From contig NZ_RKHK01000001.1 of NCBI RefSeq assembly GCF_003752405.1, forward strand, positions 2,728,001-2,792,000: a stretch of DNA of 64,000 nt. The letters are read 5' to 3'. Made by a program: the position numbers and the translations under genes. The notes under the pieces are model-generated. The model was not told the origin of the DNA. It ran no database searches and saw only the letters and a list, made by a program, of their open reading frames with translations. The stretch comes from Bogoriella caseilytica (lineage in GTDB: Bacteria > Actinomycetota > Actinomycetes > Actinomycetales > Actinomycetaceae). Below, one piece after another: positions 37,055 through 40,220 of this stretch. Positions within the stretch are counted from its first letter, which is position 1. Each line of letters opens with the position of its first letter.

Positions 37055-38863
37055 ATGAGGAAACCGGCATACCGCGTCGGGCTCGCCGTCGCCGCCGCCA
37101 CCGTGCTGGCGCTGAGCGCCTGCAACGGAGACACCCCTGAAGCACCCGAGATCGAACCCGATCCCGCGGACGAGAATGGCACTGAGGACGACGCCGACGG
37201 TGGCGACGACCCGGCGGCCGACGCTGACGAGGAGGAGCTCGCTGCTGCGGAGGACGTCATCTCGTCCTATCCACGCGAAGAGACCGTCTTCACCTCCGGA
37301 CAGCAGTGGGGTCCGCCCTCAAGCTGGAACCCGATCCCGCAGTCCGGCGAGGCCACCGGCCTGCGCGGTCTGCTCTACGAGGCACCCTTCTTCTTCAACC
37401 CCCACACCCTCGAGCTGGAGCCGTGGCTTGCGGAATCGGGCGAGTGGGTCGAGGACGACGTCTACGAACTCACCTTGCGTGAAGGGCTGACCTGGAGTGA
37501 CGGCGAGCCGCTGACGGCCGACGACGTCGTCTTCACCTACGAGCTCGGCGAGAACCCCGAGGTCCCCTGGTCGAACACCTGGACCTGGATGGACTCGGCC
37601 GAGGCCGTGGATGAGACCACCGTGCGTTTCACCTTCAGCGAGCCGCGCTATCAGTCCTGGGACAACAACCTGTACTCGGTGTCGATCGTGCCCGAGCACA
37701 TCATGTCCGAGTGGGCCGAAGGCGACTACATGTCGAACCAGAACGAGAACCCGGTCGGTTCCGGCGCCTTCCTCTACAACACCCACGGCCAGGACCGCAT
37801 GGTGTGGGAGCGCAACGATGACTGGTGGGGCATCGAGGCACTCGGCATGGACTTCGAGATGCGCTACATCGTGGACATCGTGAACCCGTCCAACGAGGTG
37901 GCACTCGGACTGCTGCTGCAGGGGCAGCTCGACCTGTCCAACAACTTCCTGCCCGGCGTGAACACCCTGGTCGAGCAGGGGCAGCTCACCACCTTCTACG
38001 ACGAGGCTCCGTACATGCTCTCGGCGAACACCGCGGTGCTCATTCCGAACACCGAGCGTGAGCCGCTGGACGACGCGGAGTTCCGCCGCGCCCTGGCCAC
38101 GGCCATCGACGTCGACGCCATCGTCTCCGGCGCCTACGGCGGCCTGGTCCAGCCCTCGCACTTCTCCGGCATGCTGCCCGCATACGAGGAGTTCTACGAC
38201 GACAGCATCGACGGTTTCTCCTTTGACGCCGGTGAGGCGGAGTCGATCCTCGCCGATGCCGGTTACGAGGACACCAACGGCGACGGTTACGTCGAGACCC
38301 CCGACGGCGAGGCCATCGAGCTCAGCCTCATCGTCCCAGCCGGCTGGACCGACTGGATGGAAGCCGCTCGCGTGATCGCGGAGGGCGCTCAGGACGTCGG
38401 CATCAACGTCACGGCCGATTTCCCGGACTCCGGTGCGGTGGATGACGCTCGATTCAGCGGTGACTTCGATCTGCTGATCAACAACGACGCGCAGCTGACC
38501 AACACCCCGCACACCTACTGGGAGTACCTCTACCGTCAGCCCATCCAGGACCAGATGTACTCGGGCAACTTCGGCCGCTGGGACTCCCAGGAGGGCTGGG
38601 ACCTGGCCGAACGCCTGGCTGCCACGGAGACCGATGACCCGGAGTTCCAGGAGATCCTCAGCGATCTGCAGGAGCTGCACCAGGAAGAGCTGCACGCGAT
38701 TCCGCTCTGGTACAACGGCATGTGGGCGCAGTACAACACGCAGGTGTGGACCAACTGGCCCACCTCGGAATCCGACACGCCTGACCACTTCGCCTCCACC
38801 TGGGGCGGGTACTGGCAGATGGGTGGCCTCGCCACCCTGGCGGATCTCACCCACGCGGACTGA
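37055..38863 (+). CDS. Family 5 extracellular solute-binding lipoprotein (oligosaccharide-type)
   Basis: Binding protein (602 aa) of the peptide/oligosaccharide ABC class. Lipobox LSAC follows the signal peptide, then a 45-residue acidic linker. LREGLTWSDGEPLTADDVVFTY is the family 5 signature, and PLDDAEFRRALATAIDVDAI and WYNGMWAQYNTQVWTNWP follow. Proteins with this tail and neighbours bind cello-, manno- or beta-gluco-oligosaccharides rather than peptides. The GH1 and GH2 genes downstream favour a beta-mannoside ligand. It starts the operon behind the TTAACCGGTTAA operator; a 361-bp structured gap separates it from the permeases. Confidence 0.92.
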   Translation: MRKPAYRVGLAVAAATVLALSACNGDTPEAPEIEPDPADENGTEDDADGGDDPAADADEEELAAAEDVISSYPREETVFTSGQQWGPPSSWNPIPQSGEATGLRGLLYEAPFFFNPHTLELEPWLAESGEWVEDDVYELTLREGLTWSDGEPLTADDVVFTYELGENPEVPWSNTWTWMDSAEAVDETTVRFTFSEPRYQSWDNNLYSVSIVPEHIMSEWAEGDYMSNQNENPVGSGAFLYNTHGQDRMVWERNDDWWGIEALGMDFEMRYIVDIVNPSNEVALGLLLQGQLDLSNNFLPGVNTLVEQGQLTTFYDEAPYMLSANTAVLIPNTEREPLDDAEFRRALATAIDVDAIVSGAYGGLVQPSHFSGMLPAYEEFYDDSIDGFSFDAGEAESILADAGYEDTNGDGYVETPDGEAIELSLIVPAGWTDWMEAARVIAEGAQDVGINVTADFPDSGAVDDARFSGDFDLLINNDAQLTNTPHTYWEYLYRQPIQDQMYSGNFGRWDSQEGWDLAERLAATETDDPEFQEILSDLQELHQEELHAIPLWYNGMWAQYNTQVWTNWPTSESDTPDHFASTWGGYWQMGGLATLADLTHAD

Positions 38864-39224
38864 TCGCGCCAGCTCGCGATCGCTCCAACCCCCGAGTGAA
38901 CCCGGGCGAACCCCGCGTGAACCCCGTGCGATTGTGGTCAGTAAGTGTCGGAATACCCACCCGATACGGCGTCCAGAGCGACGCCAACTGACCACAATCG
39001 CCGGGGGCGGGGCGCCCGGGAGCTCGAGCCCGAGAGCACGGGAGCTCGAGCACGGGGAGCGCCCGGGGGCCGGGCACGCAGGGGGAGCGCGGCCGAGGCC
39101 GGCTCTTGACCCTCCACCCCGGGCCCGCCGGGGCGCCGCGCCCGCTGGGGAGCCGTTGTTCGCGGACTCCTCCACCCCCCTTTTGACTTGACCTGACCTG
39201 CCCAGCCGACCGACAAGGGTTGAC
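38864..39224. other. Structured intra-operon gap with palindrome and short repeats
   Basis: No gene is seen in these 361 bp. They contain three imperfect copies of GYGAACCCCG (about 38897-38926), a 74-nt three-way-junction palindrome (38928-39001), the 13-bp direct repeat CGGGAGCTCGAGC twice (39017-39029, 39039-39051), GC-only stretches to 39180, and TTGAC repeats (39183-39197) just before the permease gene. Confidence 0.75.
38928..39001. repeat. 74-nt three-way-junction palindromic element
   Basis: GCGATTGTGGTCAGT (38928-38942) and its exact complement (38987-39001) form a 15-bp closing stem. Inside are two hairpins: GTGTCGG/CCGATAC (38945-38951 with 38961-38967, one G-U pair, 9-nt loop) and GGCGTC/GACGCC (38968-38973 with 38980-38985, 6-nt loop). 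The compact Y-shaped fold looks like a mobile repeat or a structured RNA. Confidence 0.75.
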
Positions 39225-40220
39225 GTGGCCACTTATCTCATTCGCAAACTGCTGATCTACGCCTTGACCTTCGTGGTTGCCGTCAGCATCAACTGGGCGA
39301 TCCCGCGCATGATGCCGGGCGACCCCGTGACCCGGCTCATCGCCCGCGCGAATCTGTCCCACCCGGAAGCGGTGGAGCCGATGCGCAACTACTACGAGGC
39401 CGTCTTCGGCTTGGACCTGCCGTTGTGGCAGCAGTACTTCAACTACTGGGGTGCGCTGTTCCGCGGCGAGATGGGCATCAGCGTCTGGCTGTTCCCCTCC
39501 GAGGTCTCGGAGGTGATCTGGAACGCCGTGCCCTTCACCCTGGCGCTGATGCTCCCGGCGATCCTGTTGAGCTGGCTGGTCGGCAACAAGGTGGGCGCGC
39601 TGGCGGCGCGGAGCAAGTGGCTGGACAACACCGTACTGCCGATCGGCTACCTGCTCACCGCCACTCCGTACATGTGGATCGCGATCCTGCTGGCCTGGTT
39701 CCTCGGCATCGTGATGGGGTGGTTCCCCGTGGCCGGCGGCTACGACTTCGGGCTCATCCCGATGTGGTCGTGGGAGTTCGTGGTCAATCTGGCCACCCAC
39801 TGGTTCCTGCCCTTCCTCTCGCTGTTCCTCGTGGCGCTGGGTGGCTGGGCGATCGGCATGCGCAACGTGATCATCTACGAGCTCGAGGCGGACTACGCCA
39901 ACTATCTCGAGGCACTCGGTGCACCGCGCCGGCTGGTCCGCCGCTACGCCTACCGCAACGCACTCCTGCCGCAGATCACCGGTCTGGCGCTGCAGCTCGG
40001 CACCGTGCTCGGTGGTGCCCTCGTCACCGAGGTGGTGTTCGCCTACCCGGGCCTCGGCTACCTCATCCTGAACGCGATCAACAACCAAGACCTGTTCCTT
40101 CTGCAGGGCGCTTTGCTCTTCGTGGTGGTCGGGGTACTGATCGCGAACTTCATCATTGACCTGCTCTACATCGTGGTCGACCCGCGCACTCGCACCGGAC
40201 TGCAGGGAGGAACCTCATGA
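39225..40220 (+). CDS. Oligosaccharide/peptide ABC transporter permease, DppB-like
   Basis: First membrane subunit (331 aa) with six helices. The start YLIRKLLIYALTFVVAVSIN, PGDPVTRLIARANLSHPEAV and the EAA-type loop YANYLEALGAPRRLVRRYAY are typical. TEVVFAYPGLGYLILNAINN is the late DppB signature. GTG 39225 has only a weak ribosome-binding site (AAGGG 8 nt upstream). The family also serves cello- and manno-oligosaccharides in actinobacteria and thermophiles. It overlaps the next permease by ATGA. Confidence 0.92.
   Translation: MATYLIRKLLIYALTFVVAVSINWAIPRMMPGDPVTRLIARANLSHPEAVEPMRNYYEAVFGLDLPLWQQYFNYWGALFRGEMGISVWLFPSEVSEVIWNAVPFTLALMLPAILLSWLVGNKVGALAARSKWLDNTVLPIGYLLTATPYMWIAILLAWFLGIVMGWFPVAGGYDFGLIPMWSWEFVVNLATHWFLPFLSLFLVALGGWAIGMRNVIIYELEADYANYLEALGAPRRLVRRYAYRNALLPQITGLALQLGTVLGGALVTEVVFAYPGLGYLILNAINNQDLFLLQGALLFVVVGVLIANFIIDLLYIVVDPRTRTGLQGGTS

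Follow-up and report, generated by a model that had tools for sequence, protein, structure and literature searches.

The 74-bp palindromic element at positions 38928–39001 of the window, the whole 64,000-nucleotide stretch of the Bogoriella caseilytica genome analysed here, belongs to a family of dispersed palindromes which are probably the DNA sites of nucleases encoded elsewhere in the genome, with one such gene for each subfamily, in a system resembling that of REPINs and REPtrons. Computation revealed the dispersal of the family, its two subfamilies with matched arms and the flanking of each of two paralogous predicted nuclease genes by palindromes of its own subfamily, together with a like arrangement that recurs in many lineages with different palindromes, tandem arrays at the element edges and the exact absence of the gene-and-palindrome unit from one lineage.

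The window element and its predicted fold

The element (2766928–2767001 on contig C1 of the genome, no strand assigned) begins 64 nt past the stop codon of a gene for an extracellular solute-binding protein of family 5 (37055–38863, forward strand; Pfam SBP_bac_5) and ends 223 nt ahead of an ABC permease gene (39225–40220, forward strand; Pfam BPD_transp_1). The initial annotation had placed it in a 361-bp gap between a binding-protein and a permease gene, which is borne out by the open reading frames ending at 38863 and starting at 39225, and by Pfam for both names. On the basis of the dyad conserved over the copies, the left 23-bp arm (38928–38950, forward strand) and the inverted right 23-bp arm (38979–39001, reverse strand) are proposed as half-sites; the 28-bp centre between them (38951–38978) is unconserved among the copies and includes parts of both inner hairpins of the junction into which the window copy folds. 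Two tandem arrays, likewise without an assigned strand, lie in the same gap: a decayed 11-bp array, CCCCGAGTGAA repeated 3.5 times (38890–38926, detected with TRF; 3891–3927 of L120), stops one base short of the element, and a 17-bp array of 2.2 copies (39119–39155) does not adjoin it.

Folding reproduced the 74-nt coordinates, the exact 15-bp closing stem and the two inner hairpins with almost no unpaired bases between them. The minimum free energy of the window copy is -44.9 kcal/mol, shuffles averaging -17.8 (z -9.55, with 0 of 200 as good); constrained to the long-hairpin fold of the family, the copy scores -38.1. The “perfect three-way junction” of the initial annotation is thus predicted for this copy, but a multiloop was the best fold in only 4 of the 46 copies found in the genome, and also in 397 of 1000 shuffles of the window copy's interior. 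The inner helices paired in 48.7% and 45.6% of the cells of a 19-copy alignment. With these helices in under half of the cells and the multiloop rare among copies, a three-way-junction RNA was rejected, and the junction is incidental to the family. That such an RNA regulates the window operon is hardly credible: the very stable predicted fold of the window copy speaks for it, the rarity of the junction against it, and no Rfam family reached its gathering score in the window.

The same 19 copies gave a dyad pairing of 85.1%, identical to the shuffle mean of 85.1%. Variable arm positions therefore change without their partners, as would be expected of a site in double-stranded DNA made up of two inverted half-sites more than of a sequence selected as RNA; the suggestion of a novel structured regulator is not supported. 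The covariance-model search that had been put forward as a check did recover multiple dispersed copies, but over those 19 copies the arms covaried no better than shuffles. Among 16 Brevibacterium copies, on the other hand, dyad pairing was 86.8% compared with 83.3% for shuffles, none of 500 being as high. On the whole the evidence favours a DNA dyad and still allows a hairpin role, given the modest above-shuffle pairing in Brevibacterium. Secondarily, the element may influence termination or the mRNA upstream of it; the flank of the window copy is GC-rich and contains no T run.

A dispersed family, its gene context and its edges

A DNA search of the genome (3,235,396 bases in one contig) retrieved related copies in both orientations. 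Nineteen of these, which match by construction as the other 27 do not, were used to build a covariance model that located at least 46 distinct places, every copy being 73 or 74 nt long and the weakest having an E value of about 0.006; because 150 of 4331 first-look candidates were scored, 46 is possibly a lower bound. The conserved feature is a 73/74-bp DNA dyad of two arms of about 23 bp around a variable centre. Pairwise identity, computed from the 15 subfamily A copies of 73 nt and the 22 subfamily B copies of 74 nt among the 46, is 0.84–0.86 over the outer 14 arm positions, 0.61–0.71 over the next 13 and 0.36–0.37 in the centre. Subfamily A, mostly 73 nt long, has GTGGTCA arms and subfamily B, nearly always 74 nt, GTGCTCA arms, and the arm types match within the copy in 43 of 46 cases (A/A 21, B/B 22). 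The window copy is a hybrid with the outer arms of subfamily A, B-like inner arms and the B length of 74.

Most copies are intergenic, four of the 46 overlapping a predicted open reading frame. The annotation's suggestion of a REP/MITE-like mobile palindrome is thus upheld as regards dispersal, fixed length and mostly intergenic position, but the element is no strict REP or MITE: the model of RAYT-type Y1 transposases (PF01797) found no match in the genome, whereas it matched in 5 of 14 control genomes, and direct repeats at the element edges are at shuffle level, the longest averaging 1.33 nt over the 46 copies compared with 1.31 nt in shuffled pairs, with 247 of 500 shuffles as high. The copies are near-perfect dyads of fixed length, many of them at gene ends, and on these grounds attC, parS, dif and telomere-type sites were provisionally set aside.

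The window-type element was found in none of 36 genomes of the same family, searched with model R1 under stricter filters; the R1 search of relatives also gave two weak matches within the same order. A scan of public genomes with the outer motif returned multi-copy, mostly 73-nt families in Brevibacterium. There were also two matches in viral contigs. Single matches in distant genomes, for instance of Chloroflexi and Planctomycetota, were taken as chance and left out. Viral contig IMGVR_UViG_3300025770_000008 has three TTGTGGTCA...TGACCACAA dyads within 1.4 kb (L091 877–2211).

Gene orientation around the copies was derived from a simple coding-potential gene caller, the window and six 20-kb stretches serving as control. 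Convergent gaps were enriched, at 17 of 43 element gaps versus 3 of 46 control gaps (p 0.00025), and divergent gaps made up 5 of 43 versus 12 of 46 (p 0.11). Tandem repeats were detected by TRF, in the window genome only, in 21 of 43 gaps that contain an element and in 12 of the 126 others (p 1.7e-7). In 19 of the 46 copies an array boundary lies close to the element edge, no more than 15 nt inside it or 1 nt outside. Where arrays stand on both sides of one copy, the listed consensus units differ, only partly at L098; we read the arrays as tandem duplications that arose from the edges of elements already present. GC-rich minisatellites with units of 7–22 bp and up to 14 copies start at palindrome edges, as at L107 4195–4291, L100 5043–5116 and L117 3864–3924, and these edge minisatellites of the window genome are possible fast-evolving typing markers. 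By eye, tandem arrays are absent from the listed 30-nt flanks of the palindrome copies in three other genomes considered below (G355, G237 and G407). The composition of the flanks is skewed, with a C content of 0.51 in the 20 nt before the element and a G content of 0.48 in the 20 nt after it.

The predicted partner nuclease genes

Two pairs of elements in the B. caseilytica genome, an A pair at 925892 and 927115 and a B pair at 3168560 and 3169712, stand about 1.1 kb apart and each enclose one gene, nuclease A being bordered by A elements on both sides and nuclease B likewise by B elements. The two products are paralogues of 63% identity, and both genes are outside the window. Four further element pairs are less than 2.5 kb apart, one of which also encloses a single gene, so that close pairing as such is not unique to the nuclease loci. 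At L104 3984–4760, a third gene of the genome (L104 4069–4614) has A-type palindromes on both sides and a sequence unlike that of the nucleases. Nucleases A and B are the only close homologues in the genome; two more remote ones exist at L137 and L138, neither with a convincing palindrome pair, a pair at L137 having passed the automatic threshold and been judged chance. A 70-nt imperfect palindrome (L138 2338–2407) stands beside the remote DUF559-like gene there, with no partner on the other side.

The protein is predicted to combine, as a fusion, an AbiEi-like part with a homing-endonuclease fold of the Vsr/EDxHD type. In the model of nuclease A (pLDDT 89.8, pTM 0.84), residues 36–185 match the AbiEi antitoxin with a Z score of 11.5 among the matches listed, and residues of about 187–290 match, also among those listed, I-Bth0305I (3r3p; Z 11.3), NGO0050 (10.6) and Vsr (1cw0; 10.1); Foldseek alone ranked I-Bth0305I first at an E value of 0.026, no PDB match falling under 0.001. 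E193, D225, H242 and D251 do not vary among the 30 homologues compared, and by their order we provisionally assign them as the EDxHD residues. At E values up to 0.1, Pfam recognised MTES_1575 in 23 and DUF559 in 21 of the 30 members, and the AbiEi model of PADLOC matched 22 of the 30. MTES_1575 has been described as a novel Vsr-type restriction endonuclease (PMC3710099). None of the eight genes next to four loci belongs, by Pfam, to the nucleotidyltransferase toxin family of the AbiEii partner; these neighbours gave GATase, Clp ATPase, LamB_YcsF, an ABC exporter, a weak Isochorismatase match twice and nothing twice. Homologues in plasmid and phage records are remote only, in 5 and 1 records, respectively.

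The layout recurs beyond Bogoriella. In two Brevibacterium species the homologous nuclease gene is again situated between two palindrome copies. Of 396 genomes sampled within the order, 195 have a homologue at an E value of 1e-15, and some of these were checked for palindromes. At 29 new loci, with the threshold set at an arm similarity of at least 13 of 16, matching palindromes were present on both sides at 14, compared with 3 of 812 pairs that combined the left and right sides of different loci, and the palindrome sequence differs from lineage to lineage. A second automatic test of 63 loci was passed by 29, and by 110 of 3904 crossed pairs, many of these presumably between related loci.

On a tree of the homologues, 31 of 62 rows are flanked and widely spread; one clade has 0 of 23 rows (22 genes) and the remainder 31 of 39. 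The flanked label requires 8 changes against a shuffled mean of 20.9, with 0 of 500 shuffles as low. These labels are partly by eye: L137 and L163 were removed from the flanked set, L167 and L242 were added, as were two Brevibacterium loci. The tree left out L137, L138 and L140; L146 and L252 are the same gene, and L264 is partial. Among the best matches in 30 species of genus g40, the ten at L237–L246 (54–81% identical to the protein of genome G237) are all flanked by eye and the 19 at L247–L265 (49–54%) are not, although within this set of near relatives the automatic comparison of own and crossed pairs is weak (5 of 30 versus 49 of 870 at threshold 13). The bare clade comprises L247–L265 together with L142, L143, L146 and L150; it is present in many of the 30 g40 genomes and may have taken on a host function. 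At L163 and L165, several palindromes cluster on one side only of the nuclease gene.

Flanking palindromes are also dispersed in other genomes. The one beside the G237 nuclease has fixed-length copies at 5 sites of that genome, 7 of G407 (two of them flanking the latter's own nuclease gene) and 14 of G355, with none in five other genomes tested, and a reversed-pattern control found none in all eight; a slightly wider pattern gave 21 palindromes in G514 and 10 in G458. Four pairs of copy-bearing stretches align between two species with the element at the matching place in each, and the arm variant follows the species, being mostly ACTTAT in G355 and ACTTAC in G407. In the stretches from G355, G237 and G407, the 22 copies include 13 in convergent gaps, and most are 7–30 nt past a stop codon; many have short A-rich and T-rich ends, and short T runs are seen at many G355-type copies.

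Gain and loss could be followed at several sites. At one convergent gap compared across 30 species, the palindrome is present in 10, in several of which the two arms have changed in step, and 14 of the 20 palindrome-less species have instead a short hairpin by the script's test. When the palindrome at the test site and a close nuclease (at least 67% identical) were scored over 30 species, both were present in 5, the palindrome only in 5, the nuclease only in 3 and neither in 17. From the 21 palindromes of G514, 12 were chosen for having no apparent match in G355; five of these sites were comparable in G355, three being filled and two empty. One of the empty sites is deletion-like, and the other (L278) is clean and has no direct repeat.

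The entire palindrome-nuclease-palindrome unit of the G458 locus, about 1.1 kb, is exactly absent from the sister species G355 and G514. The empty site there reads GCAACGCGTTG(C) and the filled site GCAA-CGCG ... CGCG-TTGG, leaving a 4-bp CGCG overlap. Homology to the flanks of this locus extends over both sides in G237, G427, G452 and G498 (L145, L237, L239 and L240) and over one side in G511, G449 and G423 (L242–L244), with none in G424 (L241). As the nuclease occupies the same locus over several species, loss of the unit is the simpler reading; insertion with a 4-bp duplication is a possible alternative, and replication slippage across the inverted repeat could produce the exact absence. 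The 8-mer footprint of the lost unit, AACGCGTT, is not recurrent, having 10 matches in 830 kb where 9 were expected, two of them at the nuclease locus. G355 and G514 keep their 14 and 21 exact-pattern palindromes with a best nuclease match only 52% identical to the cognate one, and so palindromes do not need the nuclease in the short term. Their retention suggests that they persist through host use, or that the nuclease loss was recent.

Proposed mechanism, rival explanations and known systems

The nuclease is proposed to join an inverted-repeat-binding part like that of AbiEi to a Vsr/EDxHD catalytic domain. The promoter of AbiEi's own gene contains two inverted repeats of 23 bp to which the protein binds (PMC7319586), and I-Bth0305I, an EDxHD enzyme, forms a dimer on a target almost 60 bp long (PMC3943268). 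By analogy, a fusion of these two predicted folds beside two inverted arms of about 23 bp suggests dimeric binding of the dyad, in which two protomers would bind the two arms and the nuclease would nick or cut near the outer edges. The arrays abutting the edges and the exact loss of a unit suggest breaks near those edges. If such cuts were repaired while hairpin-forming DNA stood at the break, copies might be lost, regained or homogenised, and tandem duplications growing outward from the element might be left behind; the palindromes would persist for long at gene ends, as REPINs do with RAYTs. The mode of origin of new palindromes is left unexplained by this proposal, and their spread is itself something that we infer.

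A different account would have the palindromes kept by the host as transcription terminators or as stabilisers of mRNA 3' ends, with the link to the nuclease incidental. The enrichment of convergent gaps, the position and the A-rich and T-rich ends of the G355, G237 and G407 copies and the short hairpin replacing the palindrome in 14 of 20 species would all suit it, yet fixed length, lineage-specific arms, the existence of two subfamilies and the flanking of the nuclease on both sides are left unexplained, and the window copy, whose flank is GC-rich and has no T run, also tells against it; taken as the whole explanation, it is unlikely. We hold it to be very unlikely that the flanking palindromes are operators of an AbiEi-like autorepressor whose regulon is the dispersed copies and whose nuclease domain is idle. 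The predicted fold of the N-terminal part and the promoter binding by AbiEi cited above accord with such operators, but palindromes are found downstream of the nuclease gene too, the dispersed copies prefer gene ends to promoters (divergent gaps being, if anything, rarer than in the control), and the E, D, H and D residues are invariant throughout the homologues.

Ordinary MITEs, or terminal inverted repeats of a DNA transposon that uses the nuclease as its transposase or no longer has a transposase, would account for a gene between matching palindromes and for a whole unit gained or lost, with the CGCG overlap readable as a target duplication. The nuclease, however, stays at one locus over several species, though not in L241; the centres are unshared between copies, unlike those of young MITEs; and no target duplication is seen around the 46 copies, leaving the CGCG overlap of the composite unit as the one candidate. 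We regard this account as slightly more improbable than that of the operators, and return to the reading of the palindromes as sites of the nuclease in comparing them with known systems.

REPINs and REPtrons consist of dispersed extragenic inverted repeats that form hairpins, with conserved arms and a spacer kept in length, and of a single-copy enzyme gene next to its own repeats, several flavours of repeat each having their own enzyme gene (PMC3116915, PMC8266576). Here too an enzyme gene has its own repeats on either side, and further copies are dispersed in the genome. The enzyme, however, is a predicted AbiEi-Vsr/EDxHD fusion and not a Y1 HUH transposase, and the GTAG/CGTC tag is absent by eye from the A, B and Brevibacterium consensus sequences; within 10 nt of the edge of the 46 copies, GTAG was found at 1, CTAC at 3, CGTC at 2 and GACG at 3. 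Without HUH transposase and tag, the system is not filed as a REPtron. The bordering of transposase genes by inverted repeats that can also be dispersed is known from TIRtrons/TIRYT (PMC3733652), but theirs are tyrosine transposases.

The predicted fold and the E-D-H-D residues liken the enzyme to Vsr and to EDxHD homing endonucleases such as I-Bth0305I, from which the present system differs in having intact palindromes on both sides of the gene, a proposed target in dozens of copies per genome and an AbiEi-like DNA-binding part. With the AbiEi antitoxin of the type IV AbiE system it would share a predicted fold and cognate palindromes with two inverted arms of about 23 bp, but here the fold is fused to a nuclease, and the adjacent nucleotidyltransferase toxin gene is missing by Pfam. 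In the open-access literature, at the level of titles and abstract openings and with most subscription papers outside it, no description of palindromes linked to DUF559/Vsr-like genes was found. The system looks like a new enzyme-and-repeat partnership common to many related bacteria.

The broadest form of the proposal, to which we give even odds, is that Actinomycetes hold an independent, convergent counterpart of the REPIN-RAYT system. AbiEi-Vsr/EDxHD nucleases, ancestrally bordered by their own palindromic targets, would create, homogenise and sometimes excise palindrome populations by dimeric edge cutting and would seed minisatellites, while hosts would co-opt the palindromes as bidirectional gene-end hairpins. 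REPINs and RAYTs are a well-studied case of a short-repeat population living with a single-copy enzyme, in which the spread of the repeats is still unsolved. If the proposal is true, a second and enzymatically unrelated system with the same layout would show this to be a general evolutionary solution, and the question of repeat spread would become testable with a different chemistry, namely the predicted metal-dependent cutting by a homing-endonuclease fold. It would also suggest a function for the DUF559/MTES_1575-like proteins, which occur in about half of the sampled genomes of the order, give naturally diversified nuclease-target pairs for work on protein-DNA specificity, and hint at one possible origin of minisatellites and of hairpins at gene ends in high-GC genomes.
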